Origin: a virus
IMG/VR virus record: IMGVR_UViG_3300020450_000050
Location: 1-37,017 of that record
Direction: 5' to 3' (one strand)
DNA: 37,017 bases
Under the pieces are notes generated by a model, which worked only from the letters and a program-made list of their open reading frames with translations, did not search any database and had not been told where the DNA came from. Positions within the stretch are counted from its first letter, which is position 1. Each line of letters opens with the position of its first letter. The position numbers and the translations under genes are program-made. Shown piece by piece: positions 2,909 to 37,017 of this stretch.

Positions 2909-3501
2909 TGAACACATTACTAATAGAAACAAGATTATTCGAAGGTAAGGTAAACGAAGATGATAGTGGAAGAACTATCGTTAAGGGTATTCTACAAAGA
3001 GCTGGTTCAGAAAATCAGAATGGTAGAATATATCCAAAACCTATCCTTATGAGAGAGGCAAAGAAATACGAACAACTAATTAAAGAAAGAAGAGCATTAG
3101 GTGAGTTAGACCATCCTGATTCTTCTGTAATCAACCTAAAAAATGTATCACATAATGTAAGAGAGATTCATTGGGATGGTGATGATTTAGTAGGAACAGT
3201 TGAGATATTACCAACCCCAAGCGGTAACATCTTAAAAGAACTTCTACAAGCAGGTATTCTATTAGGTATATCATCAAGAGGTATGGGTTCGGTAGAACCT
3301 TTAACTGGTGGTAAAGTTCAAGTAGGTGAAGATTTTGAATTAATTGGTTGGGATTTTGTTTCTAACCCATCTACTCATGGAGCATTTATGGTTCCTATGA
3401 ACGAATCTGTGAACAAACAAATTCAAGAACAATCAGTAGTTTGTGAAGAATGGTGTAAGGCACAGCACATAATGAGAGAAATTATAACAGAAGCTAGTTA
3501 A
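2908..3501 (+). CDS. 21: Prohead core scaffold protease, gp21-like (peptidase family S80)
   Basis: This 197-residue serine protease should cut the core and capsid proteins during prohead maturation. The ATG at 2908 follows GGGGAG and overlaps the previous stop. The hallmark sequences are GRIYPKPIL, then GELDHPDSS with the probable catalytic His69, then GILLGISSRGMGS with the probable nucleophile at Ser122/Ser123, and WDFVSNPSTHGAF. The order and spacing of His and Ser match the herpesvirus-protease-like fold of family S80. The final residues, IITEAS, contain an Ile-x-Glu|Ala site, so the enzyme may trim its own C terminus. In T4 this gene directly precedes the scaffold gene; here a 4.4 kb cassette intervenes. 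Confidence 0.92.
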   Translation: MNTLLIETRLFEGKVNEDDSGRTIVKGILQRAGSENQNGRIYPKPILMREAKKYEQLIKERRALGELDHPDSSVINLKNVSHNVREIHWDGDDLVGTVEILPTPSGNILKELLQAGILLGISSRGMGSVEPLTGGKVQVGEDFELIGWDFVSNPSTHGAFMVPMNESVNKQIQEQSVVCEEWCKAQHIMREIITEAS

Positions 3502-3505
3502 GATT

Positions 3506-3694
3506 ATGGGATTTAATGTACAGGACTTTATGTCCAAAAATAAATTTAAGTTGGGTAAAGTTACCAGAGAAGTAGGAGAAACTCCATTCAAAGGTGGACA
3601 CAACGATATAAGAAAAACGAATTATGATGTTAAGTTAACCGAAGATGGTAAACTTGATTTATATACACATAAAAGGGAGACAAAAGAATTATGA
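3506..3694 (+). CDS. Small hypothetical protein (62 aa) after the protease
   Basis: This short hydrophilic protein begins MGFNVQDFMSKNKFKLGKV and ends in a charged stretch. Its start is four bases after the protease stop and has only a weak ribosome binding site, so it may rely on re-initiation. Its stop overlaps the next start as ATGA, tying it to the downstream gene. Codon use matches its neighbours. No motif was recognised. It is the first gene of the cassette between the protease and scaffold genes. Confidence 0.5.
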   Translation: MGFNVQDFMSKNKFKLGKVTREVGETPFKGGHNDIRKTNYDVKLTEDGKLDLYTHKRETKEL

Positions 3695-5079
3695 TTAAAT
3701 TAGGTGGTCTTATAACTCTAAAACCAATTACTGAAGCAGATGTATTCACTGCTACAAGTAAAGAAACTGGTACAACTTCTGTATTTAAATCTAAAGATGC
3801 AAGAGATGCTGCAATTAAAGCAGGAACTCACGAAAAAAGAAAAGATGATAAAGATGGTGCAGTTAAAGACCCAACAGATAAACCTAAAGTAAACATCTTT
3901 AAGAAAGATAAAAAAGATGAACCAAAATCAGAACCAAAATCAGAACCAATTGATGTTGATGTAAGAGATATTGAAGATTTTACAGTATTAGATGATATAA
4001 TCGCTCAAAATCAATCAAAGTTATCAAAACAACAAATCGATAAATTAAAACAATTATCAGCAGATTGGGAAGATGCCGAAGGTGAAATGATGATGGGTGG
4101 TGATGATGAAGCTGAAGCTGAATATCAAAGAACACTAAGTAGTATAAGAAAAGATATAAAAAATGTACTTACAAAATCAGATGAACCTAAAGATAGTAGT
4201 ACACCAACAGATTCAACTGGTGGTAGAGCAGGTAACCCTCAAGTAAACAAAGAAGTTCGCCAAAAAGCAAAAGATTTAGGAGTTCATCCAAATAACTTAG
4301 GAAGAAAAGAATATGAGAAAAGAATGAGTCAAGCAGCAGTACAAGCATTAACTGATTCAAACTTTCATTCTGAAGCAAGAAAACTAATTGCAGTATTAGA
4401 AGATAATCCTGATTTCGCTAAAGACCCAAGAAAAGACCCAAATATGCCAGATATCATGTCACCCGAATATGATGAGTGGAGAAAGAGTAGTGTATATGGT
4501 TCTGAATTTTATGATTCATCACCTGGTACTGATGAGATAGGAAATTTTGCTTCTCAAGAAGCTAGTTATAATGGTGTGGAAGCATTAGATGCCATTGCAT
4601 TTGATTTAAAAATGAATGGTAGTAAACAATTAGCTGCAAAATTACAAAGTATCATGGATACAAATGAATCATCAACAAAACTAAAAGCATTAGTACCAGA
4701 AGAATATAAAATTAACGAAGGAACTCGTTCACAAGTTGGTGTTATCGATAGAAGTGGTAAGATTGCATCTGCATATGTTCATTTTGATGGATACCCATCA
4801 AATATGAAACCTGGTCTTAAAAAACACATGAAGAACGAAAAAGATGTTCTAAACCTAATTAAAAAAGGTGGAGCAAGAGGTATTTATAATAATAAACCAG
4901 TAGAGTTCTATAATGAAAAACCATCACCAATAAAAGGTAACTTTAAAGATATAGAAAAATATATTAAAAGTGCAGACCAAAGAGGTGGAGCAGAATATGT
5001 ATATTTATACAATATGAAGGATAGGAAATGGTATTTTGCTGATACATACAAAGATAAAGATATTAAAAAATTATTTTAA
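3691..5079 (+). CDS. Multidomain hypothetical protein with HFDGYP domain; candidate internal head protein
   Basis: This 462-residue hydrophilic protein has three visible parts. The N terminus, MIKLGGLITLKPITEADVF, carries ITE|A at residue 15, a good match to the T4 prohead protease rule. Residues about 25-50 (TTSVFKSKDARDAAIKAG) form a small charged motif, followed by a Lys/Asp/Glu-rich linker with repeated EPKS. A helical middle (about 95-330) follows. The C-terminal domain (about 333-455) contains AYVHFDGYPSNMKPGLKKHM and ends with YVYLYNMKDRKWYFA. I recognise the HFDGYP domain as recurrent in phage proteins but know no function for it. A packaged core protein is the best inference. The start overlaps the previous stop. 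Confidence 0.6.
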   Translation: MIKLGGLITLKPITEADVFTATSKETGTTSVFKSKDARDAAIKAGTHEKRKDDKDGAVKDPTDKPKVNIFKKDKKDEPKSEPKSEPIDVDVRDIEDFTVLDDIIAQNQSKLSKQQIDKLKQLSADWEDAEGEMMMGGDDEAEAEYQRTLSSIRKDIKNVLTKSDEPKDSSTPTDSTGGRAGNPQVNKEVRQKAKDLGVHPNNLGRKEYEKRMSQAAVQALTDSNFHSEARKLIAVLEDNPDFAKDPRKDPNMPDIMSPEYDEWRKSSVYGSEFYDSSPGTDEIGNFASQEASYNGVEALDAIAFDLKMNGSKQLAAKLQSIMDTNESSTKLKALVPEEYKINEGTRSQVGVIDRSGKIASAYVHFDGYPSNMKPGLKKHMKNEKDVLNLIKKGGARGIYNNKPVEFYNEKPSPIKGNFKDIEKYIKSADQRGGAEYVYLYNMKDRKWYFADTYKDKDIKKLF

Positions 5080-5089
5080 GGAGAAAAAG

Positions 5090-5806
5090 ATGAAACTAAC
5101 CCAACTAATTAAAGAAAACGAAGAAAGACCTCTATCATCAGAGGTAAAAAGACATTTTCTTGAAATTGTTTCTACTTACAACAAGTATCAAGAATCAATG
5201 GATAGAAAATCAGATATAACCCAAGTAGCAGAAACTCTTGGTGGAATTACTGAGGCTGCTAGAACACTTGCTATTAAAGAAGCAGGAGATTGGTTCGATA
5301 AACATACTGTAAGAAGAAATATGAACGAATTGGATAAGTTGGGTAAACAATTCGATAAAGTTGCTGGTGAGGCAAGAAACCTTGACCAGAGAATGGCAGG
5401 ATTATATGAGGATATGGGACACATCCTTTCAAGATATTATAAGTTTGGTGAGATTACCGAAGATGAGATGAAATCAAGATTAGGTATAAACGAAACTAAA
5501 GAAGAAGATTGTGGATGTAATGAAATCAGAGAACAACAAGTAACTGTACACAACAGAACTTCAAATGGAAACATTGTTACTACTTTAAAAGAATCCGATT
5601 TAAATGAGCAAGAAATGAAACTTTATGAGTTTGGTAAAAAAGTTACTCGTTTAATGGAAAAGAATGTTCCTACAAACCCATCAAAGTGGGCATATTACAA
5701 AGCACAAGCAAAAAAGAAATTTGATGTTTACCCCTCAGCATACGCCAATGGTTGGGCTGCAAAACAATATAAAGCAGCTGGTGGTAGTTGGAAAAAAGGA
5801 AAGTAG
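5090..5806 (+). CDS. Hypothetical protein with C-terminal PSAYANGWA module
   Basis: The ATG at 5090 follows AAGGAG; longer in-frame starts would overlap the preceding gene. The 238-residue product has a helical N-terminal region, with GGITEAARTLAIKEAGDWF near residues 50-68 (ITE|A is again protease-like). A Cys pair follows in EEDCGCNE. The C-terminal basic module includes PSKWAYYKAQAKKKFDVYP, SAYANGWAAKQYK and GGSWKKGK. That last module recurs in small phage proteins and may bind nucleic acid, but its function is unknown to me. It sits in the protease-scaffold cassette, so an internal or core head role is inferred. Confidence 0.6.
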   Translation: MKLTQLIKENEERPLSSEVKRHFLEIVSTYNKYQESMDRKSDITQVAETLGGITEAARTLAIKEAGDWFDKHTVRRNMNELDKLGKQFDKVAGEARNLDQRMAGLYEDMGHILSRYYKFGEITEDEMKSRLGINETKEEDCGCNEIREQQVTVHNRTSNGNIVTTLKESDLNEQEMKLYEFGKKVTRLMEKNVPTNPSKWAYYKAQAKKKFDVYPSAYANGWAAKQYKAAGGSWKKGK

Positions 5807-5814
5807 GAGTTGAG

Positions 5815-6888
5815 ATGGGTCAAAAAAGATATAATCAAAAAGATGGTGTAGGTTCAGCAAAATACACAATCTCTTATCATGATGGTAAAAAGAAACACAA
5901 AGATGGTAGTGATTTCTTTGATATCCAAATTTTCAGAAATAAAAAAGATTTAGCAAAGTTTGTAAATACTCTACATAAGGGTGGTTACAAATATGGATTT
6001 GCTGAATCAGTTAATGAAGCTAAATACTATAACAAGGCCGATGCACTAACTGCATACTTCAAAGGTAAGATAGATGCTAAAGAATTAGATAAGATTGCAA
6101 GAAATCAATTTAAGAGTGGTATTGCAACTAAAAAAGAATTATCTAACTTCTTATCAAATAAGTTTACTCAAGATGTAATGAGTGATACCTACGGTATTCC
6201 TGCAGGTACATTAGTAAAACGAGTAAGAGGATTAATGAAATTTGCTGAATCAATAAATGAAAAAAGAGACCCTAATTTATTTTATGTATTATATCAAAGG
6301 AAAGGTGTATTTAACAAACCTGCAGCCGCTGGATATAAAGATAGAAAAGATGCTGAAAAATTTGCTAAAAGTTTAAAAAATCACAACACAATGATTCTTA
6401 ACAAACAAACAATGAAGAATGTAAAAGGTGTTGATATAAAAGAAGAGTTATCTCAAGCAGAAATCGATAAACTGAAAAAGATTGAAAAAGAATTACAAAA
6501 AGCATCTGATATACACAAAGCACAATCTGATGCTTTAGCTAAAGGTTCTAAAATGCATGCCGCACAAGCTGATAGAATAAATAAAATGTATGAAAGGTTA
6601 TATAAAAGATTAGATGCTGCGGTTGATAAAGATGGTGTACCTCAAGGATACGACCCTATTACAGAATCTAAGACTAAAGAAAGTAAAGCTGTTCAGATGA
6701 TATACAAATATGAAAAAAAAGAAAAAAAGTTTTATGATAAAATGGCTGAACATGAAAGAAGAATTGGGCCAAGAGAATATGCAAAGTTTATCATAAATGC
6801 ATTAAGAGGATTTGGAATTAACCCAAGGCAATACAAAAGAATACCTGATGCAGAAGAAAAACTTTATCAAACAGTATCAAAAAAATGA
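5815..6888 (+). CDS. Hypothetical three-part protein with N-terminal SYHDG-KKHKDGS domain
   Basis: The ATG at 5815 follows TAGGAG. The 357-residue Lys-rich product starts with a compact domain (residues 1-60) reading KYTISYHDGKKKHKDGSDFF followed by DIQIFRNKKDL. This domain is linked by FAESVNE|A (residue 68) to a helical part, then by FAESINE|K (residue 149) to a second small domain beginning FYVLYQRKGVF. ITE|S occurs further on. The repeated FAES-(V/I)-NE linkers look like processing sites for the prohead protease. The C-terminal part (about 290-357) is basic and helical. I suggest a cleaved core or internal protein. No enzymatic motif is visible. Confidence 0.58.
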   Translation: MGQKRYNQKDGVGSAKYTISYHDGKKKHKDGSDFFDIQIFRNKKDLAKFVNTLHKGGYKYGFAESVNEAKYYNKADALTAYFKGKIDAKELDKIARNQFKSGIATKKELSNFLSNKFTQDVMSDTYGIPAGTLVKRVRGLMKFAESINEKRDPNLFYVLYQRKGVFNKPAAAGYKDRKDAEKFAKSLKNHNTMILNKQTMKNVKGVDIKEELSQAEIDKLKKIEKELQKASDIHKAQSDALAKGSKMHAAQADRINKMYERLYKRLDAAVDKDGVPQGYDPITESKTKESKAVQMIYKYEKKEKKFYDKMAEHERRIGPREYAKFIINALRGFGINPRQYKRIPDAEEKLYQTVSKK

Positions 6889-14314: not shown

Positions 14315-14685
14315 GTTATACTAATAAACCAAAACCTAAAATCATAACTCCTTTTGATGATAAACAAAGGTTTAAAAATCTTGTGTTAGAGGTGATAAAA
14401 GATATGGAAATATTTACTCATACACCAGATTCAATATCATTAGATGGAAGTATTTTTACACTTACACTTAATAATAAAAAACTTGTTTATCAAGATATAT
14501 CTGTTGATGATATACCAGAATATGTAGATGTTTTTCTACAAGGAGTAAAAAAAGCATCAGATACCTATGGGGTTACTGATAATGGAACTAATGTAGTAAT
14601 TGTTTTTACTGAAAGTATAACATTAAATCCTGATTTAATTGTAAATACAGATTTTTCAGTAAAAGGTAAAATAGTGAGTAGATAA
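14311..14685 (+). CDS. Small protein sharing the C-terminal beta module (124 aa)
   Basis: The start overlaps the previous stop as ATGA and the stop overlaps the start of the giant fibre gene as TAATG. The first 50 residues are polar and helical (KPKIITPFDDKQRFKNLVLE). From about residue 65 on, the protein repeats the module of the two genes before it: EYVDVFLQGVKKASDTYGV, NVVIVF, and a final NTDFSVKGKIVSR. It could be an adaptor between the neck or tail and the following giant protein. No named family. Confidence 0.55.
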   Translation: MSYTNKPKPKIITPFDDKQRFKNLVLEVIKDMEIFTHTPDSISLDGSIFTLTLNNKKLVYQDISVDDIPEYVDVFLQGVKKASDTYGVTDNGTNVVIVFTESITLNPDLIVNTDFSVKGKIVSR

Positions 14686-17600
14686 TGGCAACACTTATAC
14701 AAAGTAAACAGATTGAAGGAGTAGTAACGGCCTCAGTAATTGTAGGTGAGTTTGAAGTTAGTGGTTCATCACAATTTACTGGCTCTTTAAGTATTACTGG
14801 CGATGTTACAGCATCTGGTGCGTTCATTGGAGATGGTTCTAAACTTTCTTTTGGTGGAACAAATATAGTAAGTGGTTCATCCCAATTAACATTTTCAGAA
14901 TTAGGTGGCTTACCAGCAGGATTAATTAGTGGTTCCTCACAAGTAGATTATACATCACTTACAAATGTACCAACCTTTTTACCAGGTGAAAATACTACAA
15001 TCACATCTGGTAGTAATATTATAACAATATCCTCAACAGGTGGTGGAGCAAATGATTCATTGAACTCATTTACTGCATCGTACTTTGGTGATTCTGCATC
15101 TTTTGATTCAAGAATCGATGGTATAAGTGCAAGTGGTAGTGGTGCTGATTTTAATGTAAACCTATCAAATATTCCAAGTGGTTTAGTAAGTGGTTCATCT
15201 CAAGTAGTATTTACAAGTTTAAGTAGTATCCCAAGTGGTATAATCAGTTCTTCAGAACAACTTCCAGCAGGTGTTGTAAGTGGTTCTATACAAGTTTTAG
15301 GTGGAACTGATATAATTAGTGGTTCACAACAAATAACTGCGTTAGGATTCATTTCCTCATCTCATACAGATATAACATCTTTAAACTCATACACTGCATC
15401 AAACGATATTAAAATATCTAATTTAGAATCTACAACATCTTCATTAGATACAAGAATCACACAACTATCGAACGCAACAGGTTCATATGAAACAGTAGGT
15501 AGAGGTATAATAAGTTCATCAGAACAATTACCAAGTGGTGTTCTTAGTGGTTCAGAACAAATAACATCTTTAGGATTTATATCTGAATCTTCAGTAAATA
15601 CATCATTAAACACATTCACTTCATCTATTCAAACTGAAGTTGATGGATTAAGTGCAGCAACATCATCCTACTTAACATCAAGTGGTTCAGTTGATTATAG
15701 TGATTTAACTTCTGTACCAAGTGGAATTGTTAGTGGTTCAGAACAAATTACAAGTTTAGGATTTATATCCGAATCATCTGTAAATACATCTTTAAATGAG
15801 TTTACAGCATCTGCAACAATACAATTATCTAATTTGGAATCAACAACTTCTTCATTAGATACAAGAATTACTACTGAAAAAACAAGAATTGATAATATAC
15901 TAAGTGGTGCTGATGCAAATTATGACCAATTCGTAGAGATTGTTGATTTAGTAAATTCAACAGATACAGAAAACGATACTGCATTTGCAAATCACTATAC
16001 TTCAAGTAGACAAAGAGATTTAGCACTCGAACAATTCAGTAGTTCAATACAAACTGAAGTAGATGCATTAAGTGCAGCAACTTCTTCATATCTAACTTCA
16101 TTAGATGGTGGTATTATAAGTTCATCAGAACAATTACCTGGTGGAATAGTAAGTGGAAGTTCACAATTAACTGGCTTAGGATTTTTAAGTGGTTCTTTAT
16201 TACCAGGTACTAATATAACAATCAACTCTGGTAGTGATGGATTCTTTATTAGTTCTTCAGCGGGTGGTGGTTCAAGTGTAACTGTTTCAGATTCAGCACC
16301 AGGTTCTCCATCAGAAGGAGATTTATGGTGGAAATCTAATGATGGTAATCTTTATGTATATTATGATGGGTATTGGGTAATATCTATTGATACTACAAAC
16401 GCTTTACCAACAGGTGTTCTTAGTGGTTCTGCTCAAATAACTGCATTAGGATTTGTAAGTAGTAGTGGTGATAGTACACCAGCAGGGACAATAAGTGGTT
16501 CACAACAAATTACTGATTTAGGATTTATTTCTTCATCAGATTCAACAACATCATTAAATACATTTACCTCATCCATACAAACAGAGGTTGATGGATTATC
16601 AGCAGCAACTTCTTCTTATTTAACTGAAGTACCAGCTGGAACAATAAGTGGTTCATCACAATTAACCTCTTCTTACGATGCAAGATATGCTTTAAGTGGT
16701 AGTGGAGGAGCAATACCATCGGGTACTGTTAGTGGTTCATCACAATTAACTTCCTCATACGATGATAGATACCAATTAAGTGGTTCATCTATACCTTTTG
16801 ATGGAAATAGAATTGTATCCCAAGAAAAATTACCAACGATGTTTACTTCATCGTTTAATCCTGGTACAAGTGGTTCTGTTGTAGATTTCTTAAATGCAAT
16901 ATTCTATCCAAATAGTGACCCTTCAATTACAAGTGGTAACCAAACAATATCAGAATATAGTGCAAGTTCAGCAGCAATATTTACTTTAGAAGCAACAGAC
17001 CCTGAAGGTCAAACAATTACATTTGGTACTGCCTCTGATTATACAGATGATTTAGTTAGAGTTGCATCTAATGGTGTTGTAACTTTAAATGCATTAGCAG
17101 AATCATCTTCATTTAATACTGATTTAGTGGGTGGTTCACATGGACATACATTTACTGCAACAGCAACTGATACATTTAATTCAACAGTAGAAAAAGATAT
17201 TACAATATTTGTTACTCCAAACGCAGCACCGATATTTAGAGAAACATCGGTAGCAGGAAATCAAATTACAAATGTTACCGCAAGTTTAAATGAAAGTTCA
17301 ACAAATGGAACTTTAGTAAAAAGAATATTCTTTACAGATGCTGAAAGTGATACTATTACAATTGATTCATCATCAATATCACCTCAGGCACACTTTACAA
17401 TTACAAAATCAGCAACTTATGTTGATATAACACAAAATACAGGTTCACTTAATTATGAAGTAGACCCATTATATACTTTCAGTATTAGTGCATCTGATGA
17501 ACATTTCCAAAACTCACAAGATAGTGATTCTATTTCAGTTTTACCAGTATCAATTAGTATTGTTGATAATGCAACACCAACTGTTAATAATCAATCACTT

Positions 17601-20600
17601 TCTGCTATAAATGAAAATAGTTCAAATGGAACAGTAGTAGGTTCTATTTCTGCAAATGATACAGAGGGAGATACTATTACATTTGTAAACTTTAACTTAT
17701 ATAAATTAGAATTAGATAATGCAAATGTATCGAGTGGTTCATATGGTGGAACATCACAATTAACAGACCCACATGAAAATCCATTCCAAATGAATTCATC
17801 AGGTCAAGTAACTCGTAAAACAGGTGTATTTATAAATTCTGATTTAATTAACGAATATCAATATACTGTTGAGGTTAGGGATTCATATAATAATAACTCT
17901 AATCCAGCGATTATAACAATACCTATTACTGATGATACACCAGCAACACTTACAGATAACTTTACTAATTTATTTATTAAAGAATCTGAAGTAAGTGGTT
18001 CAACTATAAAAACAACAAACTATGGTTCAACAACTGCTGATTTTGATTCTAATCAAGCTGGAACATTTTCATCATCTAATCCAGCAATAGCAATTAATAG
18101 TAGTGGTAATTTATCAATGAATGTAGATTTAAGTGGTTCAGTAACTCAAAGTGGAGAAACAATAGATTCTACAATTACATTTACAAATGGATTTAGTACA
18201 ACAACTACTCAAGCAATTAGTGTAACAGTTGTTCCAAATTCGCACCCAAGTGCATCATTTACATTACAAAATTCAAATCTAAATACAAATTTAGCAACAA
18301 CAAATACAAATTTGGTTTCTGTATCGATAACGGATACAGAGAGTGATACTCCTTTTTCTGCTTCTTTATCTGGTACTGATGCAGCAAAACTTAATATCAA
18401 TTATACAAACTCAAATTCATCATCTCTCTTCATTAGAGCAAATGAGAACTTATCTGCAGGAACCATAACTTATAACCTAAGAGTAACTGATGCTTATAGT
18501 GAAGTATCTGATTACACAGGTCAAACAATTCCTATCAATAAAGTAGATACAGGTACTCTTGGTGGGGATACAACATCACATTTAATTGAATCAGCAAGAA
18601 GTGGTTCAGTTTTAAGAGATGCAAGTGGTTTTGAGGCAGGAAATGCTTCACAATTGACTGTTTCATACTCAGGTTCAGATGGAACCCCATCTGTACAATC
18701 ATTTACTTCATCAAATGCAGCAATTGATATTGATAATAGTGGTAATCTTACCCTTGCAGTTGATATAAGTGGTTCAGCTACTTCATCGGGTGATACAATT
18801 TCATCTGATATAACATTCCAAGATAATTATGGTAATTTAGGTAGTGGTAGTTTAACAGTAAATGTATTTGCAAACTCACATCCAAGTGCTTCATTCACTA
18901 ATAATAGTGGAGTTTATAATACAAACCAAGCAACATCAAGTGCATTGATGGTTTCACTAACAATTACAGATGAAGAAACAGATACTCCATTCAGTATGAG
19001 TTTAAGTGGAACAGATGCAAGTAAATTTAATATAGTACCACAAAATTCAAATACTTCTTCAGTTCAATTAACTGCGGCATCTGATTTTGATGGTGGAACT
19101 TATTCATATACCGCTTCAATCTTTGACCAATTTGGTGAAACTTCACAATATGAAAGAGAAATAACAATTGCTCAAGCAACTTTAGGTACATTATCAACTA
19201 ATGGTACATTCTATGTTATAGAATCAGCAACAAATACAGCACAAATAAAAACAAATTCAGATGGTAGAACTGGTACAAATGCTGATTTAGGAGTTAGTTA
19301 TTCACCTAACTATGGTTCACAAGTTGTACAATCATTTACTTCATCAAATGCATTTATTGCTGTAAATTCAAGTGGTGCCTTAACTGTTGGTAATCCTATA
19401 AGTGGTAGTGGTAATGTTAGTGGTGATACACTTAATTCAAATATAACATGGGCAGACCAACATGGTAATATAGGTAGTGGTTCAATATCAGTTAACATAA
19501 CTACAAACAATGCACCTACAACAAGTTCAATTTCAACACAATTTGAAAATACAAATCAGGCAACTGGTTCAAGTCAACTATTATCATTAACAATTTCTGA
19601 TGTAGAAAGTGATTCAATACCAGATTCAGCTTTAAGTTGGTCAATTTATAATGATACATATTTTGTTCCAAATATTAGTTCACCATACATGAGATTGTTG
19701 GTAAACAATACTTCAGTACCAAGTGGAACTTATCCTTGGGAAGTTCATTTACAAGATGTACATGGATTTAGTACAAGAGTTGTAAGTGGTTCATTAGTAA
19801 TAGCTCAAGCAGATACAGGTACTATGAGTGGTGATACTGCAATTTATGCAATAGAATCTGCATTAAGTGGTTCAGTACTAAGAGATGCGACTGGATTTGG
19901 AAATGGAAACGCATCAGATGTAGATGTTTCTTATTCACCAGCATATGGTTCACCAGTAGTACAATCCTTTACTTCATCAAATGCAGCGATTGCAATAAGT
20001 GATAGTGGAGCAATGACATTAGCAGTTGATTTAAGTGGTTCGGCAACACAAAGTGGGGATACAGTAAGTACAACAATAACATTTGATGACCAATATGGAA
20101 ATGTTGGTAGTGGTTCAGTTACCTTGAATGTATTTGGTAACTCATCACCAGTTGCAGCATTTACATCATCATCAAACTATGAAAGTGATAACGCAACAAG
20201 TGGTTCTGATGCAGGTGCATTAGTAGTAACTGATGTAGAAAGTAATTCACCATTTACAGTTACCCTCGCAGGTACAGATGGTGGTAAATTTGATGTAAGT
20301 GGTTCAACCTCACCATTTGAGATACAACCAACAGGTTCATTAGCTGCAGGAACATACTCTATTAATATAACAGTAACAGATAGTTACTCAGAATCAGTAA
20401 CATTATCAAATCAATCAATAGTAGTAGACCAATCAGCAAATAATGGTAAGGTATATATTTATTATTCGAACTACGCTTCGGATGGTAATTATTCGAGTGC
20501 GTATAACTCGGTGATGGGTGCAAGTACATTAAATAGTGATACTCCACCTGAAGTAACTGCTTATACGGCAAATACAGCATCACCGTATTACAAAATTAAA

Positions 20601-21017
20601 ACATCGGTAGGTGATAGTTCATATGCACTTGCTGGTGGTAAAACTATGACACTTGCGGCAACGATAAGTGGTTCAGATTTCCCAACAATTCTTTCAGCTT
20701 CCGCAGGAGCTATGAGTTGGGGAACTACTGTACAAACCGTTATTGTTATACCAAGTGGTTCAAGTATGACAAATGTACCAACTTCAATGACAGATGGATT
20801 TGGAGGAAGTACTGTGGGAGAATATGCTTTAGTTCACTACGCTGATGGAACATCTGCACCTTTAGGAGCATCTCCATCAATGATACATACACTTGATGTT
20901 GATGGAACACAAGGTGGGTTTGATAAGTGGCATGTATTAGGAGCTAAAATTAATAGTAGTGCAACAAACATGAGAATTAAAGTAGTACCAAGTAGTGGTT
21001 CATTAGGAAATTTTTAA
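14685..21017 (+). CDS. Giant Ser/Thr-rich fibre-type protein with Ig/cadherin-like repeats (2110 aa)
   Basis: This very large secreted-type structural protein lacks a signal peptide. Residues 1-530 contain about 17 copies of a SGSSQ-type motif (variants SGSAQ, SGSEQ, SSSEQ), spaced by short strands and heptad-like NTSLNTFTSS stretches. A GDLWWKSNDGNLYVYYDGYW segment lies at about 540-565, a motif common in phage fibres. Residues about 745-1085 are cadherin-like, with AINENSSNGTVVGSISAND as the clearest copy. Residues 1085-1917 consist of four tandem units of about 200-215 residues. A distinct C-terminal domain (1918-2110) begins NNGKVYIYYSNYASDGNYSS. It is translated from a start that overlaps the upstream stop, directly after neck genes. 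A long whisker, head or tail fibre is likely. Confidence 0.75.
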   Translation: MATLIQSKQIEGVVTASVIVGEFEVSGSSQFTGSLSITGDVTASGAFIGDGSKLSFGGTNIVSGSSQLTFSELGGLPAGLISGSSQVDYTSLTNVPTFLPGENTTITSGSNIITISSTGGGANDSLNSFTASYFGDSASFDSRIDGISASGSGADFNVNLSNIPSGLVSGSSQVVFTSLSSIPSGIISSSEQLPAGVVSGSIQVLGGTDIISGSQQITALGFISSSHTDITSLNSYTASNDIKISNLESTTSSLDTRITQLSNATGSYETVGRGIISSSEQLPSGVLSGSEQITSLGFISESSVNTSLNTFTSSIQTEVDGLSAATSSYLTSSGSVDYSDLTSVPSGIVSGSEQITSLGFISESSVNTSLNEFTASATIQLSNLESTTSSLDTRITTEKTRIDNILSGADANYDQFVEIVDLVNSTDTENDTAFANHYTSSRQRDLALEQFSSSIQTEVDALSAATSSYLTSLDGGIISSSEQLPGGIVSGSSQLTGLGFLSGSLLPGTNITINSGSDGFFISSSAGGGSSVTVSDSAPGSPSEGDLWWKSNDGNLYVYYDGYWVISIDTTNALPTGVLSGSAQITALGFVSSSGDSTPAGTISGSQQITDLGFISSSDSTTSLNTFTSSIQTEVDGLSAATSSYLTEVPAGTISGSSQLTSSYDARYALSGSGGAIPSGTVSGSSQLTSSYDDRYQLSGSSIPFDGNRIVSQEKLPTMFTSSFNPGTSGSVVDFLNAIFYPNSDPSITSGNQTISEYSASSAAIFTLEATDPEGQTITFGTASDYTDDLVRVASNGVVTLNALAESSSFNTDLVGGSHGHTFTATATDTFNSTVEKDITIFVTPNAAPIFRETSVAGNQITNVTASLNESSTNGTLVKRIFFTDAESDTITIDSSSISPQAHFTITKSATYVDITQNTGSLNYEVDPLYTFSISASDEHFQNSQDSDSISVLPVSISIVDNATPTVNNQSLSAINENSSNGTVVGSISANDTEGDTITFVNFNLYKLELDNANVSSGSYGGTSQLTDPHENPFQMNSSGQVTRKTGVFINSDLINEYQYTVEVRDSYNNNSNPAIITIPITDDTPATLTDNFTNLFIKESEVSGSTIKTTNYGSTTADFDSNQAGTFSSSNPAIAINSSGNLSMNVDLSGSVTQSGETIDSTITFTNGFSTTTTQAISVTVVPNSHPSASFTLQNSNLNTNLATTNTNLVSVSITDTESDTPFSASLSGTDAAKLNINYTNSNSSSLFIRANENLSAGTITYNLRVTDAYSEVSDYTGQTIPINKVDTGTLGGDTTSHLIESARSGSVLRDASGFEAGNASQLTVSYSGSDGTPSVQSFTSSNAAIDIDNSGNLTLAVDISGSATSSGDTISSDITFQDNYGNLGSGSLTVNVFANSHPSASFTNNSGVYNTNQATSSALMVSLTITDEETDTPFSMSLSGTDASKFNIVPQNSNTSSVQLTAASDFDGGTYSYTASIFDQFGETSQYEREITIAQATLGTLSTNGTFYVIESATNTAQIKTNSDGRTGTNADLGVSYSPNYGSQVVQSFTSSNAFIAVNSSGALTVGNPISGSGNVSGDTLNSNITWADQHGNIGSGSISVNITTNNAPTTSSISTQFENTNQATGSSQLLSLTISDVESDSIPDSALSWSIYNDTYFVPNISSPYMRLLVNNTSVPSGTYPWEVHLQDVHGFSTRVVSGSLVIAQADTGTMSGDTAIYAIESALSGSVLRDATGFGNGNASDVDVSYSPAYGSPVVQSFTSSNAAIAISDSGAMTLAVDLSGSATQSGDTVSTTITFDDQYGNVGSGSVTLNVFGNSSPVAAFTSSSNYESDNATSGSDAGALVVTDVESNSPFTVTLAGTDGGKFDVSGSTSPFEIQPTGSLAAGTYSINITVTDSYSESVTLSNQSIVVDQSANNGKVYIYYSNYASDGNYSSAYNSVMGASTLNSDTPPEVTAYTANTASPYYKIKTSVGDSSYALAGGKTMTLAATISGSDFPTILSASAGAMSWGTTVQTVIVIPSGSSMTNVPTSMTDGFGGSTVGEYALVHYADGTSAPLGASPSMIHTLDVDGTQGGFDKWHVLGAKINSSATNMRIKVVPSSGSLGNF
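17935..20437 (+). repeat. Four tandem ~610-640 bp units encoding paired Ig-like domains
   Basis: Units begin near 17935, 18543, 19171 and 19810. Each has a first half with (Y/H)xIESAxSGS, SFTSSNAAIAI, a SGSxTxSGDT loop and a (D/T)QYGNxGSGS strand, and a second half with NSHPSASFT, TDxESDTPFS and SGTDAxKFN. They are clearly homologous but diverged at the DNA level, so the expansion is old. Unit 1 lacks the N-terminal IESA form and unit 4 has a shortened second half. Confidence 0.8.
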
Positions 21018-29581: not shown

Positions 29582-30238
29582 ATGGCTCAGATTATAAAGC
29601 TTAAAAGAAGTACCACTGCATCATCTAAACCTACTACTTCAGATTTATCAATCGGAGAGTTAGCAATAAATGTTAATGATGGTAAAGTATTCCTAAGAAA
29701 ATCAGGTTCTGCAGTAGGTGATAATATTAAAGAGTTTGTAACTCTTGACCATCAAGGTACCTTAAGTGGTTCTTTAAATATTACTGGTTCAATAACTGCA
29801 AGTGCTTTCAAAGGTGATGGTTCTGGTCTTTCCAATATTACAGCAGAAATATCTGAAAATGCAACTGTTACTGCATCCTTTTCAAATACCGATACAATAA
29901 ATGTAACTCATAACTTTAATAGTAAAAATATAATGGTATCAGTTTATGATTCAGGTGATAGTATGATTATACCATCAGAAGTAAACTTAACAAGTGCAAA
30001 TGTTGCACAAGTAGTTTTATCAACAAATGATAGTGGTTTTGTAGTTGTTGCTAAAGGTGGACACATTGTAAGTGGTTCAGTAGATGCAAATCAGATTACT
30101 AATTTGGATGACCTTGTTGTAAACGAAGTTAATGAATTAGGAGTGTTTAGTGGTTCTGCACAAGTATCACTAAGTGGAGATGTAACTGGTACCGCAGCAG
30201 CTACTGTTATATCACAAGTAGATGGAGAAACTTTTTAA
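29582..30238 (+). CDS. Short fibre protein with Mtd-like N terminus and VDGETF end (218 aa)
   Basis: It starts 12 bases after the S74-containing gene, with AGGA upstream. The N terminus MAQIIKLKRSTTASS and LSIGELAINVNDGKVFLRKS is the attachment domain shared with the genes at 21750, 24960 and 34674. The middle (about 90-165), with TDTINVTHNFNSKNIMVSVY and GFVVVAKGG, is a beta domain resembling the C-terminal domain of the protein at 34674. It then repeats SGSAQVSLSGDVTGTAA and ends QVDGETF. It is too short for a full fibre, so a distal or side-fibre subunit is likely. Confidence 0.65.
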   Translation: MAQIIKLKRSTTASSKPTTSDLSIGELAINVNDGKVFLRKSGSAVGDNIKEFVTLDHQGTLSGSLNITGSITASAFKGDGSGLSNITAEISENATVTASFSNTDTINVTHNFNSKNIMVSVYDSGDSMIIPSEVNLTSANVAQVVLSTNDSGFVVVAKGGHIVSGSVDANQITNLDDLVVNEVNELGVFSGSAQVSLSGDVTGTAAATVISQVDGETF

Positions 30239-30292: not shown

Positions 30293-33200
30293 ATGATTAT
30301 ACATAACCCCATAGTATCAGGTTCACTAAGATTTCCATCAGATGATAGTACTAATTTAGTAACCATGAAAGTGGTTAATGGAACCCTTGAAACTGTTACC
30401 TTAAATTCAAGTGGTGTTGACCAAAATGTTCAACCATCTGTTAATTACTCAGGTTCATTTACAGGTTCGTTTGTTGGAGATGGTTCAAGTTTAACTGGTA
30501 TCGCAGCAACATCATTTAACATCGATGCATTAGGTGCTTTAGGAAGTGCTACAGTTGCACAAGGAGATAATTTCCTTTTTAGTGATGATGGAACAGAAAA
30601 GAAAATAACTTTTTCTAATTTAGAAGATAGTATATTTGGAAATGTAAGTGGGAATGTAACAATAGCAGCAGGTGGTGCAGCTACAATAGCTAATTCATTT
30701 AAAAATGATTCATTAAATTCATTTACTGCAAGTTTATCACATAGTGATGTTGATTTCAAAGGTTCAAGTATAGTATCTGGTGCAGCTCAGATAAATTCAT
30801 TAATTAATGATACAATTGCAGCTACAATAGTAGCAGAAATAGATAATGATGAAATACCAATCGCTAAATTAGCATCAGATTCAATTACTATTGGTGGTAC
30901 ATCAGTAACATTAGGTGGAACATTATCTAATTCAGATTTATTAGAAGAAGTAGTTGGTGGAACTGGTATCCAATCTGGTTCAGGTGATATTGCAGGTGTA
31001 ACTGCAGGTGATGGTTTGACTGGTGGTGGAAATAGTGGTACAGTTTCTTTAGCAGTAAATGTTGATGATTCATCTCTTGAGATAAATTCAGATACAGTTA
31101 GAGTTAAGGCAGGTGGTATAACTAACGCAATGTTAGATGGTTCTATAACCAATGCAAAATTAGCAGATTCTTCAATTAGTATAAGTGGAACATCAGTTTC
31201 TCTTGGAGGTTCAATAACAGATGAAACACTATTTGGTGGAACAGGTGTTGTAACAGGTTCTGCTCAAGTAAATGCTAATTCAATTACAAACTTTGATACA
31301 AATGTAAAAGCAAAATTAGATGCTGAAACTGTAATTAGTGGTTCATCCCAAGTAACAAATATAGCAAACTCACAATTAGCAGGTTCAATAGCCAATTCAA
31401 AATTATCAAACTCCGCTGTAACAATTAGTGGTACTTCAGTATCTTTAGGAGGTTCAATAACAGATGAAACTTTATTTGGTGGTACTGGTGTAGTAACTGG
31501 TTCGGCACAAGTAACAAACATTGCAAACTCACAATTAGCTGGTTCAATTGCAAATGCAAAATTAGCAAACTCTGCTATCACTATTAGTGGTACTTCAGTA
31601 TCTTTAGGTGGTAGTATTAATGACCAAACATTATTTGGTGGAACTGGTGTAGTTAGTGGTTCATCACAAGTATCTTTAGAAACATTGACTGGAGGAAGTG
31701 GAATTCAATCAGGTTCTATTACGAATGCAGATTTAGCTGGTTCTATAGCAAATTCTAAATTATCAAATTCAAGTATTAGTATTGGTGGTATTAGTTTTTC
31801 ATTAGGAGATACAGATGCCACACCAGCATTTGATTTATCAGATTCAACAGGATATGCCACTTCAAATTTAAGTGGAACAATTACAAATTCACAATTAGCA
31901 GGTTCTATAGCAGCAAGTAAATTAGCTGGTTCTATTGGAAATTCAAAATTATCAAATTCAGCGATTACAATAAGTGGAACATCAGTTTCTCTTGGTGGTT
32001 CAATAACAGATGAAACTTTATTTGGTGGTGTTGGTGTTGTTAGTGGTTCAGGCCAAATATCACATGATTCTACAACTGGTTTTGTATCAAACGAACATAT
32101 AGACCACTCTTCAGTATCAATAACCGCTGGAACTGGTTTGAATGGTGGTGGAGATTTAACATCAACAAGAACTTTAAATGTAGATAATGATTATTTAAAT
32201 ACATCACTAAATACATTTACAAGTTCATTTAGTACATTTGGTTTATCATTAGTAGATGATTCAAATGCAAGTACAGCAAGAACTACTCTTGGGGTAGATG
32301 CAGCAGGTACAGATAACTCGACTAATGTAACATTAGATGATTCATCACATAACTATTTATCTTTATCAGGTCAAGAAATTACAATTGGTGAAGTAGATAT
32401 ATCAGATGATACTAACTTAGCAGTTTCTGATACAACAAATGTTGATATGATATTAAGTGGAGATACTCTTTCCGCAAATCTTAAAGGAGGAGTAGTTTCA
32501 GGTTCTGCACAAATAGCAGATGTAACACTTACAACTGCAGCACAAACAAATATAACATCATTAGGAACTCTTACAACATTAACAGTAGATGATATTACTC
32601 TTAATGGTTCTACAATTTCAGATAGTGGTGATTTAACATTAGATATAGGTGGTGATTTAAATATAGATGTAGATGGTACCGATATTGTATTAAAAGATGG
32701 TGGAACTGCATTTGGTAGATTTAAAAGAGATTCTTCAGATTTTATTATTAAATCAGAAGCTAATAATGAAGATATAATATTCAGAGGTCAAGATGGTGGT
32801 TCAACCATAGATGCTTTACTTTTAGATATGTCCTCAGCAGGTGAGGCTACATTTAATAGTGTAGTAAATGCTACCAAAGTAAATACTGGTCAAGGTGATA
32901 ACGAACTTTACGCCATGAACCAAGATGTTCAAACAACTAATAATGTACAATTTGCTAATTTAACATTATCTGGTGATTTGACAGTAAATGGTGAAACATC
33001 ATTTATTTCATCTTCAGTATTACAAATTGGTGATAATATTATAGAACTAAATGGTTCAGCAGCAGCTAATGGTGGTATTTATGTAAGAGATGCAGTAGGA
33101 ACAACAAATAGTGGTTCCTTACTTTGGGATACATCTAATGACTTTTGGAAAGCAGGAGCAAAAGATTCCGAAAACGAAATTTTAACAGTTGGTAATGTTG

Positions 33201-34570
33201 ATTCAGATATTAAAACATTTTCTTTACCAGCTAACACAACTATATCAACATTTGGTAAATCACTTATTGATGATTCAAATGCGAGTACGGCAAGAAGTAC
33301 TCTTGGTGTAGATGCAGCAGGAACTGATAATTCAACAGATGTAACATTAGCAGGAAACTCTTTCTTATCATTAAGTGGTCAAGAAATAACTGCAGAAACA
33401 ATAGATATTTCATCTCATACAAATTTAGCAGTTTCAGATACATCTGAAGTTAATATGATTCTTAGTGGAGATACAATCTCTGCTGAATTAATAGGTGGAG
33501 TAGTTTCTGGTTCATCACAAATAAGTGGAATTACAAACTCACAATTAGCAGGTTCAATAGCCAATTCAAAATTATCAAACTCAAGTATTAGTATTGGTGG
33601 TATTAGTTTCTCATTAGGTGATACTGATGCAACACCAGCATTTGATTTATCAGATGCAACTGGCTACGCAACTTCTAATTTAAGTGGTACGATTACAAAC
33701 TCTCAGTTGGCTGGTTCTATTGCAAATGGTAAATTATCAAATAGTGCTATTACTATAAGTGGAACATCTGTTTCTTTAGGTGGTAGTATTAGTGACCAAA
33801 CTTTGTTTGGTGGAACTGGTGTTGTAAGTGGTTCATCTCAAATTGATGTTACTTCTACAACAAACTATGTTGCACCAGCAATTAAAGATAATTCTGGTAC
33901 ACCAGCTTTAGTTTCTGGTATTACAGCAGCGGAAGTAAGAAGTACGATAGGAGTAGATGCCGCTGGTACTGATAACTCAACAGATGTAACTTTAAGTGGT
34001 ACACCTGATTATATCACAATTAGTGGACAAACAATTACAAGAAATCAAATTGATTTAGCAAATGATGTAACTGGTGTTCTTCCATCTGCTAATTTAGATT
34101 CAGATACAGCACACTTAAGTGGAACTCAAACATTTAGTGGAGCGAAAACATTCTCAGCTGCGGTTACTGTTTCTAATTCAACCGCTTCAACATCCAAAAC
34201 GACTGGAGCATTAAAAGTAACAGGTGGTATTGGTTTAAGTGGAGCACTTAATGCTGGAGGAGATGTTGTAGCATTCGCATCTTCGGATGAAAGATATAAA
34301 GATAATATTATTCCAATTCAGAATCCAAATGAAAAAATCAAACAAATAGGTGGATATACTTTTGATTGGAATGATAAACATGAAATATTTAAAGGTAATC
34401 ACGATATTGGTGTTATTGCACAAGAAATTGAAAAAGTATTACCTGAAATAGTTGAAACAAGAGAAAATGGTTTCAAAGCAGTGAAATACGAAAAAATTGT
34501 TGCTCTTCTTATCGAATCTAATAAAGAATTAATAAAAAGAATAGAAGAGTTAGAAAACAAAATATCTTAA
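30293..34570 (+). CDS. Tail fibre protein with long internal duplications and S74 chaperone (1425 aa)
   Basis: The N terminus (MIIHNPIVSGSLRFPSDDST) differs from the other fibres. The shaft is made of repeats of about 50 residues: NSQLAGSIANSKLSNS, ITISGTSVSLGGSITDETLF, then GGTGVVSGSSQ, at least six copies. Two larger duplications are visible: DNA about 31730-32055 against 33536-33844, and 32227-32520 against 33245-33529. A central segment (about 760-870) has DLNIDVDGTDIVLKDGGTA and ALLLDMSSAGEATFN, a motif set known from marine phage fibres. The C terminus is an S74 chaperone with SSDERYKDN; cleavage would fall before Ser1331 and release 95 residues. Its S74 domain is related to that of the gene at 24960. 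Confidence 0.83.
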   Translation: MIIHNPIVSGSLRFPSDDSTNLVTMKVVNGTLETVTLNSSGVDQNVQPSVNYSGSFTGSFVGDGSSLTGIAATSFNIDALGALGSATVAQGDNFLFSDDGTEKKITFSNLEDSIFGNVSGNVTIAAGGAATIANSFKNDSLNSFTASLSHSDVDFKGSSIVSGAAQINSLINDTIAATIVAEIDNDEIPIAKLASDSITIGGTSVTLGGTLSNSDLLEEVVGGTGIQSGSGDIAGVTAGDGLTGGGNSGTVSLAVNVDDSSLEINSDTVRVKAGGITNAMLDGSITNAKLADSSISISGTSVSLGGSITDETLFGGTGVVTGSAQVNANSITNFDTNVKAKLDAETVISGSSQVTNIANSQLAGSIANSKLSNSAVTISGTSVSLGGSITDETLFGGTGVVTGSAQVTNIANSQLAGSIANAKLANSAITISGTSVSLGGSINDQTLFGGTGVVSGSSQVSLETLTGGSGIQSGSITNADLAGSIANSKLSNSSISIGGISFSLGDTDATPAFDLSDSTGYATSNLSGTITNSQLAGSIAASKLAGSIGNSKLSNSAITISGTSVSLGGSITDETLFGGVGVVSGSGQISHDSTTGFVSNEHIDHSSVSITAGTGLNGGGDLTSTRTLNVDNDYLNTSLNTFTSSFSTFGLSLVDDSNASTARTTLGVDAAGTDNSTNVTLDDSSHNYLSLSGQEITIGEVDISDDTNLAVSDTTNVDMILSGDTLSANLKGGVVSGSAQIADVTLTTAAQTNITSLGTLTTLTVDDITLNGSTISDSGDLTLDIGGDLNIDVDGTDIVLKDGGTAFGRFKRDSSDFIIKSEANNEDIIFRGQDGGSTIDALLLDMSSAGEATFNSVVNATKVNTGQGDNELYAMNQDVQTTNNVQFANLTLSGDLTVNGETSFISSSVLQIGDNIIELNGSAAANGGIYVRDAVGTTNSGSLLWDTSNDFWKAGAKDSENEILTVGNVDSDIKTFSLPANTTISTFGKSLIDDSNASTARSTLGVDAAGTDNSTDVTLAGNSFLSLSGQEITAETIDISSHTNLAVSDTSEVNMILSGDTISAELIGGVVSGSSQISGITNSQLAGSIANSKLSNSSISIGGISFSLGDTDATPAFDLSDATGYATSNLSGTITNSQLAGSIANGKLSNSAITISGTSVSLGGSISDQTLFGGTGVVSGSSQIDVTSTTNYVAPAIKDNSGTPALVSGITAAEVRSTIGVDAAGTDNSTDVTLSGTPDYITISGQTITRNQIDLANDVTGVLPSANLDSDTAHLSGTQTFSGAKTFSAAVTVSNSTASTSKTTGALKVTGGIGLSGALNAGGDVVAFASSDERYKDNIIPIQNPNEKIKQIGGYTFDWNDKHEIFKGNHDIGVIAQEIEKVLPEIVETRENGFKAVKYEKIVALLIESNKELIKRIEELENKIS

Positions 34571-34673: not shown

Positions 34674-35150
34674 ATGGCACAATTGATTAAACTAAAAAGA
34701 ACTTCAGTAGAGGGTAAAGTACCCACAACATCTAATTTACAATTAGGTGAATTAGCAATAAATACTTATGATGGTAGAATATTCTTTGAAAAGAATGATG
34801 GTTCTGCAGCTATAAAACAAATACTTACTACTGATTCTATTACCACAGGTTCAATTACACTTTCAGCCACAGGTTCATTCGGTAGAATAATTGGTTCAAT
34901 TGGTTCAACAAATGGAGTAATTAGTGGTTCATCTCAAATAACAGATTTAACAACACATAAAGAAACGGTTACTGGTGCATCCTCATATACAGTAGACCAT
35001 AACTTAGGAGAACAATATCCAATTGTACAAGCATGGAATAGTGCAACTTCAAAACAAGAATTACCTAATTCTATAACAACAAATTCAACAAATAGAGTAA
35101 CTGTTGATTTTTCTACAACTTTTGCTGGAATAATAATTGTAAAAAAATAA
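34674..35150 (+). CDS. Short fibre protein (158 aa)
   Basis: The N terminus, MAQLIKLKRTSVEGKVPTTS followed by LQLGELAINTYDGRIFFEKN, is the fourth copy of the shared attachment domain. A single ISGSSQ follows. The C-terminal half (about 97-158), TGASSYTVDHNLGEQYPIVQ, with RVTVDFSTTFAGIIIVKK at the end, is a beta domain resembling the middle of the protein at 29582. This looks like a minimal fibre: attachment domain, one repeat and a tip. The start lacks a strong AGGAG site. A glycosyltransferase gene follows after 3 bases. Confidence 0.65.
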   Translation: MAQLIKLKRTSVEGKVPTTSNLQLGELAINTYDGRIFFEKNDGSAAIKQILTTDSITTGSITLSATGSFGRIIGSIGSTNGVISGSSQITDLTTHKETVTGASSYTVDHNLGEQYPIVQAWNSATSKQELPNSITTNSTNRVTVDFSTTFAGIIIVKK

Positions 35151-35153
35151 AAT

Positions 35154-36149
35154 ATGTATGATGTTTATTATACAACTGGTGGAGGCCCTTGGGTTAATGC
35201 TGGTACTGATACATGGGTAAATCTATGGATGGATTTAGTTGCACCTAAATTAGATGTAAAACCAATTCTTTTAATTCATAGAACAAAACCAAAAGTATAT
35301 GGAAATTTTGATTTTCCAATTGAAGCTTATTGGCATGGTGATGATATAGAGTTTGCAGAAAATCTTTGTAAAAATGCAAGAAGAATAAATATTTTACATG
35401 GTCATTATACTCCAATGAGTGTTTTACAAGATAACAAAGAAAAAATACATTCAAACATTCTTCACAATTCAGTAGACCATATTATAAAATCCCAAGTTCT
35501 AACAGATGCAACTTTAGGTTGGCATCCATATTTAGATTCAAGTTGGGAAAAGCAAGTAAATGAATGGGCGAAACATTCTATTTGGATTGGTTTATATAAT
35601 CTAAAAATTAAAAATCAAAACATACCAAATTTTTATGAATTTAAAAAAAATCTTCCTTTGAGTAAATCAAAAACATTAGGATTTGCATCAAGGTGTGAGG
35701 GAAGAAAAAATCCACATTATTTAGATGGATTGAAATCTATATTATTTACAGATTCTAATGAATTTAAAGCAATATGGAAAAATGGTGTGAAATTAGATAC
35801 ATCAAATCATAAAATATATCATTATAAATCACAATTTAAAGATAAGTTTTACAATATGGATTGGGGAATATCACATTCAGCCTTTACAAATGAACCATTT
35901 GGTTATGGAATTTTTGAAGCAGTTGATTATGGTAAATTACCTATTTTACACAAAACTTGGTGTAAAGATTTTGAATATCCATATAGGGTTTCATCAAAAA
36001 AAGAATTTAAAAATATTTATACTAAGTTAATTAAAACCCCATATTCTGAAAAAAATCATTGGTTTAATTTACTTAAAGAATATATGATAAGTAATTATAC
36101 TGATAAAGATAAGTGGGTAAAAGATTTACTTAATATTTATAATATATAG
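35154..36149 (+). CDS. GT-B glycosyltransferase-like protein
   Basis: This 331-residue protein contains the EX7E motif of retaining GT-B glycosyltransferases, with Glu247 and Glu255 in NEPFGYGIFEAVDYGKLPIL; the first glutamate often contacts the sugar nucleotide. Upstream, GFASRCEGRKNPHYLDGL (about 176-193) resembles the GR-x-(E/K)G(R/K)K segment at the start of the nucleotide-binding domain. An early GGGPWVNAGTDTWVNLW loop and NILHGHYTP fit the acceptor domain. There is no membrane segment, so it is cytoplasmic. Its place among fibre genes suggests glycosylation of fibre proteins or of host surface glycans; the substrate is unknown. No clear ribosome binding site precedes it. Confidence 0.75.
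   Translation: MYDVYYTTGGGPWVNAGTDTWVNLWMDLVAPKLDVKPILLIHRTKPKVYGNFDFPIEAYWHGDDIEFAENLCKNARRINILHGHYTPMSVLQDNKEKIHSNILHNSVDHIIKSQVLTDATLGWHPYLDSSWEKQVNEWAKHSIWIGLYNLKIKNQNIPNFYEFKKNLPLSKSKTLGFASRCEGRKNPHYLDGLKSILFTDSNEFKAIWKNGVKLDTSNHKIYHYKSQFKDKFYNMDWGISHSAFTNEPFGYGIFEAVDYGKLPILHKTWCKDFEYPYRVSSKKEFKNIYTKLIKTPYSEKNHWFNLLKEYMISNYTDKDKWVKDLLNIYNI
36134..36144 (+). promoter_or_regulatory. Possible promoter box TATTTATAATA inside the glycosyltransferase 3' end
   Basis: This exact copy of the box at 1114 and 21640 lies in the last codons of the glycosyltransferase gene, 15 bases before the next start codon. It encodes IYNI, so coincidence is possible. If it is real, the leader would be extremely short. 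Confidence 0.25.
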
Positions 36150-36158
36150 GAGAAACCA

Positions 36159-37017
36159 ATGGCCAGAAGTTCAGGAGATACACTCAGTTTAAATAATTTA
36201 GCAGCAGCTACCGGTAATACACAAAACTCAAATGTATCATTAGGTGATATAAAGGGTTCACCAAGTGCAGGTGATAATATAGGATTAGATACATTTGCAA
36301 TAGATGGTGTAGATAGTATAACTGGTTTTACATATGCTGTAGAAAGTACAGACGAAACTTATACATTAGGTTTCGATACATCTGGTTCAAATTTTATTAA
36401 AATTAGTGAAAGAGGAGCAAATTTTACATGGGCAGTTTCACCAACATATGATGCAGATGCAGATGCATCAGGTTATTTAGATATCGCATCAAACTCAGAT
36501 GAAAGTGCAGTGATATCAGTTGGCTCTATGAATCCACAAGGTTCAAGTGCTCAAACTTCATTATTAGGTACAGTAACTCATACACTATCTGTTACTTTCA
36601 ACGATGGTTATAATGACCATGCCACAAATTATAATTCAGCAAGAACTAAAACAGTATATTCAGTAGATTCATATGATGGTAATTCAACATCCTTATGTTT
36701 AACTGTGGATTCACCAGTAATTAAATCAGATGGAAGTGTAATTGAAGTTGGTGATTTGAGTGAAGGAGATACTATAAAAGGATTTGCAATTGGTGGTTTA
36801 TCAACTGATGAAGGAAGATTTTTAGATTGGGATACCCAACATTTATCAACAGAAAATATTGATGTTGAAGTAGTAAATTTAGTATATTCATTTGCAGATT
36901 CATATTATAATATTAATAATGGTGATATAACAGCAACTGGCGAACATCCATTATTAGTTAAAGATTCAGTTGATAATTTTTATAGATTTAAAGAAATTAA
37001 AAATATTAAAGATTCAG
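36159..37017 (+). CDS. Structural-type protein with intein/Hint domain (3' end cut off by the window)
   Basis: The start follows AGGAGA. The first 286 residues are visible. Residues 1-170 (MARSSGDTLSLNNLAAATGN) are Ser/Thr/Asp-rich and beta-like, as in phage tail proteins. From Cys180 the sequence reads CLTVDSPVIKSDGSVIEVGD and continues LSEGDTI, which fits block A of inteins and Hint domains. After about 80 residues, DITATGEHPLLV fits block B with His263. So a Hint fold starts at Cys180. The C-terminal part, with the His-Asn or equivalent residues that decide splicing or cleavage, lies beyond the window. It could be a true intein, a bacterial intein-like domain, or a self-cleaving virion domain. 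It follows a glycosyltransferase in the fibre region. Confidence 0.75.
   Translation, partial: MARSSGDTLSLNNLAAATGNTQNSNVSLGDIKGSPSAGDNIGLDTFAIDGVDSITGFTYAVESTDETYTLGFDTSGSNFIKISERGANFTWAVSPTYDADADASGYLDIASNSDESAVISVGSMNPQGSSAQTSLLGTVTHTLSVTFNDGYNDHATNYNSARTKTVYSVDSYDGNSTSLCLTVDSPVIKSDGSVIEVGDLSEGDTIKGFAIGGLSTDEGRFLDWDTQHLSTENIDVEVVNLVYSFADSYYNINNGDITATGEHPLLVKDSVDNFYRFKEIKNIKDS

Follow-up and report, generated by a model that had tools for sequence, protein, structure and literature searches.

A predicted BIL-like Hint domain beside a glycosyltransferase gene in the tail region of uncultured aquatic phages

The window analysed here is a whole virus record of 37,017 nucleotides, and its contig end falls about two thirds of the way into a Hint domain. 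The open reading frame that carries this domain (36159-37016, plus strand, 286 residues) runs off the contig end. The features at the locus are as follows.

35154-36149, plus strand: 331-residue open reading frame for a predicted GT-B fold glycosyltransferase, the upstream partner of the Hint gene.
36159-37017, plus strand: gene for the Hint-containing protein, truncated by the contig end to 286 of about 435 residues (relatives have 415-456).
36159-36695, plus strand: N-terminal domain (N-flank), beta-rich, with the last residues ...VDSYDGNSTSL.
36696-37017, plus strand: first two thirds of the Hint domain, with block A from Cys180.
36936-36950, plus strand: block B, T-G-E-H-P (T260, H263); among 96 relatives the His is invariant and the Thr is found in 95/96.

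The protein reads SLCLTVDSPV...DGSVIEVGDLSEGD...TGEHPLLV, with codons at 36696-36698 for Cys180, 36936-36938 for T260 and 36945-36947 for H263. The preliminary description of this DNA listed Cys180, a DG turn, GDLSEGDTI and TGEHPLLV with H263, all of which lie where it placed them. Blocks F and G fall beyond the window copy, so the C-terminal blocks are read from relatives, and any autoprocessing activity of the window copy is likewise extrapolated from them. The sole Pfam match of the window protein is DNAJC11, which is taken as chance.

The Hint gene has tail-fibre genes on one side and the gene for the tail sheath on the other. In all 95 loci with sufficient downstream sequence the sheath gene lies within a few hundred bases downstream, past a small conserved open reading frame. 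The latter (about 99 residues; 2506-2805 in locus L002) is always found between the two genes and matches no family. A few genes upstream in the window, positions 30293-34570 encode a 1425-residue tail fibre protein with a C-terminal Peptidase_S74 (endosialidase chaperone) domain, another kind of self-cleaving domain. The fibre gene is flanked by genes for small proteins (29582-30238 and 34674-35150) that have PHROG matches in common (fibre N-terminus, virion protein) and are perhaps paralogs, and an open reading frame of 2110 residues at 14685-21017 has no PHROG match. By major capsid and sheath proteins the window groups with the T4-like Microcystis phage Mel-JY01, Flavobacterium phage immuto and Rhodothermus phage RM378; upstream of the sheath gene in Mel-JY01 and immuto, neither a Hint nor a glycosyltransferase was found. 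Hint proteins of this kind are found in an extensive set of uncultured phages from aquatic habitats.

The preliminary claim of a Hint-type domain is borne out by a curated HMM, by the solved BIL structures that its profile matches and by its predicted fold, all of which agree. TIGR01445 (intein_Nterm) matches the window protein from residue 180 with an E-value of 0.0024 and 18.8 bits, short of the cut-off of 24.5 bits, and two relatives that are 56% identical to the window protein exceed that cut-off (28.2 and 27.9 bits). The same model matches all 11 family members scanned, and TIGR01443 (intein_Cterm) matches six of the 11. A search of solved structures with the Hint profile led to Tetrahymena BIL2 and the C. 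thermocellum BIL. An AlphaFold model was built for the relative L041 (62% identical to the window protein; 51-row alignment; pLDDT 83), and it informs on fold, side-chain geometry being beyond its reach. Its best match in the PDB is BIL2 (6y75, E 4e-10), followed by inteins and 2lwy, the latter with a TM of 0.84 on the target; a Hint fold, which the preliminary description expected of a structure prediction, is thus recovered in this relative. The marks of the Hint superfamily are present in the form of this fold in L041 and of Cys1 and T-x-x-H in the window and its relatives alike.

Relatives were gathered with the window protein, with a first alignment, with the Hint part (using patterns that included HNK) and with the N-domain alone. 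The 96 unique full-length relatives share one order, an N-domain of about 160-195 residues, a Hint of 150-159 and a C-terminal part of 98-115, and each runs from Cys1 through block B to His-Asn, then Lys-Gly and the C-terminal module. Cys1 is found in 96/96 and the block B Thr in 95/96, while no variation occurs at Leu-1, at the His of block B, at the terminal His-Asn or, in the N-flank, at D170, Y172, D173, N175 and L178 (L041 numbering), all of these being raw counts that kinship among the sequences inflates. Codons vary at the fixed residues, with five in use for Leu-1, two for Asn and two for Lys+1. Pooled dN/dS over 38 disjoint close pairs is 0.31 for the N-domain, 0.18 for the Hint and 0.27 for the C-terminal part. 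Constraint is thus strongest on the Hint, which is not expected of a decaying or dead domain. Pairwise distances of the three parts correlate about equally (r 0.58-0.65), as expected for a resident domain. In the window's clade the C-terminal part is FN3-like at a sub-threshold Pfam score and beta-rich in the AlphaFold model. The bacterial genomes searched gave two distant Hints only, so that the family looks viral. No orthologs were found among 50,697 records of cultured phages; that search yielded distant Hints in Erwinia jumbo phages and phage NCTB, and a small number of inteins encoded by replication or packaging genes. The uncultured phage LR756508 also has a distant Hint.

Neither Pfam nor PHROG offers a credible match for the 331-residue open reading frame upstream, whose AlphaFold model (pLDDT 84) is that of a GT-B glycosyltransferase. 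The Hint gene follows it in 69 of the 69 loci with sufficient upstream sequence. When the search was reversed, with a distant glycosyltransferase as first sequence, an adjacent Hint open reading frame was present in 79/80 loci, and in the sole exception the sequence stops 524 bases past the glycosyltransferase gene. The two genes form one cassette. The C-terminal parts of the Hint proteins anchored in this way are FN3-like, lectin-like (Laminin_G_3, for which three of three tested pass the Pfam cut-off), a part of about 140 residues that carries no assignment, or just 6-9 residues, as in the short-tailed members ending in HN|KGSDSNPF and HN|KGTNSI. In the huge phage LR756508 the gene pair occurs in reversed order, with a different N-domain and a Hint that ends in HN|KH. 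No description of a phage cassette of Hint and glycosyltransferase was found in the open-access literature.

The preliminary description expected a block G downstream, that is, His-Asn followed by Cys, Ser or Thr. The His-Asn is there in every full-length relative; the residue that follows is Lys. This Lys+1 is the sole invariant Lys among the 96 full-length relatives (96/96), and since the set found with the Hint part was partly picked by a pattern containing HNK, the count is to be read together with unbiased sets. Lys+1 is present in 80/80 loci selected by the N-domain alone, and Lys-Gly follows His-Asn in 61 of 63 glycosyltransferase-anchored Hint proteins, whichever of the four C-terminal parts they carry; each of the remaining two is a second Hint protein, encoded on the opposite side of the glycosyltransferase gene. 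Among 79 Hint segments whose mean identity between kinds is 28-36%, conservation reaches at least 95% at C1, G13, D20, G24, Y71, N75, T82, H85, D109, E135, H155, N156, Lys+1 and Gly+2, and Lys-Gly is thus conserved to the same degree as the catalytic residues, although the Hints of most kinds are only about 30% identical to one another. As a control, phage Hints were picked by another pattern (DxYFxNGxLxHN); their +1 residue varies, with Lys in 9 of the 43 that have the block B motif, and some end exactly in HNK. Lys at +1 therefore appears to be widely allowed and fixed only in the present family. That Lys-Gly stays fixed while the modules change suggests that the pair contributes to the reaction or to the function of the released end. 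It could also be a folding contact, or an exposed tag on the freed module, instead of a nucleophile.

Two further arrangements were seen among phage Hints. A family of large proteins from phages (loci L207, L227, L235, L241, L249 and L252) ends exactly in ...DWFFVNG.LVHNK, with the Hint at the extreme C-terminus and Lys alone after Asn. On a 213 kb contig that also bears the cassette (L188), positions 3457-5823 of the minus strand encode a protein of 789 residues in which three Hint segments stand in tandem; the last of them ends in HNK right at the stop codon, and the N-terminal half carries no assignment.

Taken together, the domain cut off at the window's end is most plausibly a BIL-like (type A-like) Hint that serves autoprocessing in a phage protein of the tail region, a reading to which we assign a probability of about 0.72. 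The preliminary proposal was that the protein splices or cleaves itself. Drawn from intact and strongly selected catalytic residues, that inference is sound and the domain is very probably active; with Lys at +1, however, it would be BIL-like and no canonical intein. In the proposed sequence of events, Cys180 would form a thioester with the N-domain through an N-to-S acyl shift, assisted by T260 and H263, and the terminal Asn would then cyclise, freeing a C-terminal module with Lys-Gly as its new start. Lys+1 would take part, its amine being the natural acceptor of the N-domain thioester. Type A BILs form a Cys1 thioester and cleave at Asn, after which the freed amine may attack the thioester and bring about ligation, although cleavage predominates (PMC4031507, PMC7664689).

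The domain may instead cleave at one or both ends without ligation, freeing the FN3 or lectin module, the N-domain or both, with Lys-Gly aiding Asn cyclisation or tagging the new N-terminus. We place this just short of even odds: type A BILs yield mainly cleavage products (PMC4031507, PMC7664689) and the short tails noted above offer almost nothing for ligation, but the near-invariant Lys-Gly would then lack an obvious reason, given that other phage Hints vary at +1. Ligation to Lys+1, by its alpha- or epsilon-amine, is a tentative proposal. An isopeptide through the epsilon-amine (BIL2-type) is hinted at by the invariant Lys+1, and Tetrahymena BIL2 reportedly forms such a bond with the epsilon-amine of a Lys (PMC8616854). 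It is unlikely that the Hint turns the N-domain into a thioester and passes it to a Lys of another virion protein as a cross-link; the nearest solved structure, BIL2, reportedly conjugates its N-flank to Lys of other proteins (PMC8616854), but here no candidate acceptor was identified and the cis Lys+1 is simpler. A catalytically dead Hint retained as a structural spacer would fit the fact that autoprocessing is here a prediction, and is nevertheless very improbable, the catalytic residues being invariant at about 30% identity between classes and dN/dS lowest in the Hint. Weakest of all is a canonical selfish mini-intein that excises itself tracelessly from a host protein: Cys1, TxxH and His-Asn are intact and folded domains lie on both flanks, but +1 is always Lys and never Cys, Ser or Thr in the 96 relatives, the Hint is present in 80/80 loci selected by the N-domain with zero Hint-less alleles, the fused-junction pattern is absent from 2.9 million viral contigs, the Hint has only 150-159 residues and no endonuclease, and the C-flank differs between classes, so that splicing would not restore any one host protein.

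Under the favoured reading of a BIL-like autoprocessing domain, the product would presumably be a matured component of the tail or surface, and the adjoining glycosyltransferase may modify that product or the same structure; the virion function would then be that of a glycosylated decoration or binding module of the tail surface. The maturation or release of a fibre, as put forward in the preliminary description, would be a speculative role. A fuller version is doubtful: in it, a self-ligating cassette uses Lys-Gly at +1/+2 as acceptor, and the amine of this Lys links the N-domain, perhaps by an isopeptide bond, to an FN3-like or lectin-like module that can be exchanged, free of ATP and in step with GT-B glycosylation. 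If Lys+1 is the acceptor, the cassette would represent a naturally occurring module for protein ligation that needs no ATP and in which the binding domains can be swapped. Most of what is known of phage Hint domains concerns parasitic inteins of replication and packaging genes. Unlike those, the Hint here is a fixed and strongly selected part of a tail-region protein.

Among known systems, class 1 inteins have Cys, Ser or Thr at +1, are inserted in an otherwise intact host protein and have intein-free alleles; this class was rejected on Lys+1 in 96/96, zero fused junctions and a Hint in 80/80 N-domain loci. BILs of type B are without the intein-like block G (no His-Asn) and are ruled out by the His-Asn of all relatives. 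Hedgehog Hog domains have no terminal His-Asn and carry a sterol-recognition region after the Hint, whereas here His-Asn is present and an FN3-like, lectin-like or short tail lies downstream. The PT-HINT of polymorphic toxins resembles the present proteins in joining a constant N-part and Hint to an exchangeable C-terminal module, but the modules here are FN3-like or lectin-like and no toxin domain was seen. PF07591 (PT-HINT) has no match in the window's family; it matches one cassette member and the Hint proteins of LR756508, NCTB and Erwinia phages below cut-off, and only the triple-Hint protein of L188 above it. In the Erwinia jumbo phages (phrog_38766) and the 'intein domain' proteins of phage NCTB, a Hint also occurs C-terminally in structural proteins of the tail/fibre region, but it stands at the C-terminal end with 3-12 residues after it and Thr, Ala or Lys at +1; a search of these phages for the glycosyltransferase gave no match. 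BIL2 of the Tetrahymena thermophila BUBL1 locus (PDB 6TMM, 6Y75) is the nearest solved structure by both profile and fold, with a Hint between folded domains and a Lys implicated as acceptor. It is about 19% identical, its flanks are ubiquitin-like whereas the phage flanks are beta-rich, and its acceptor Lys lies within the downstream ubiquitin-like domain rather than at +1. With the type A BIL of C. thermocellum (PDB 2lwy) the family shares the Hint fold, Cys1, TxxH, a C-terminal His-Asn and a +1 residue other than Cys, Ser or Thr, the last two, which define type A by sequence, being read in relatives. It differs in that Lys-Gly is fixed at +1/+2 and the domain is constant in one phage gene beside a glycosyltransferase while the downstream module varies. 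Judged on these residues, the Hint is no canonical intein and most resembles the BILs of type A.
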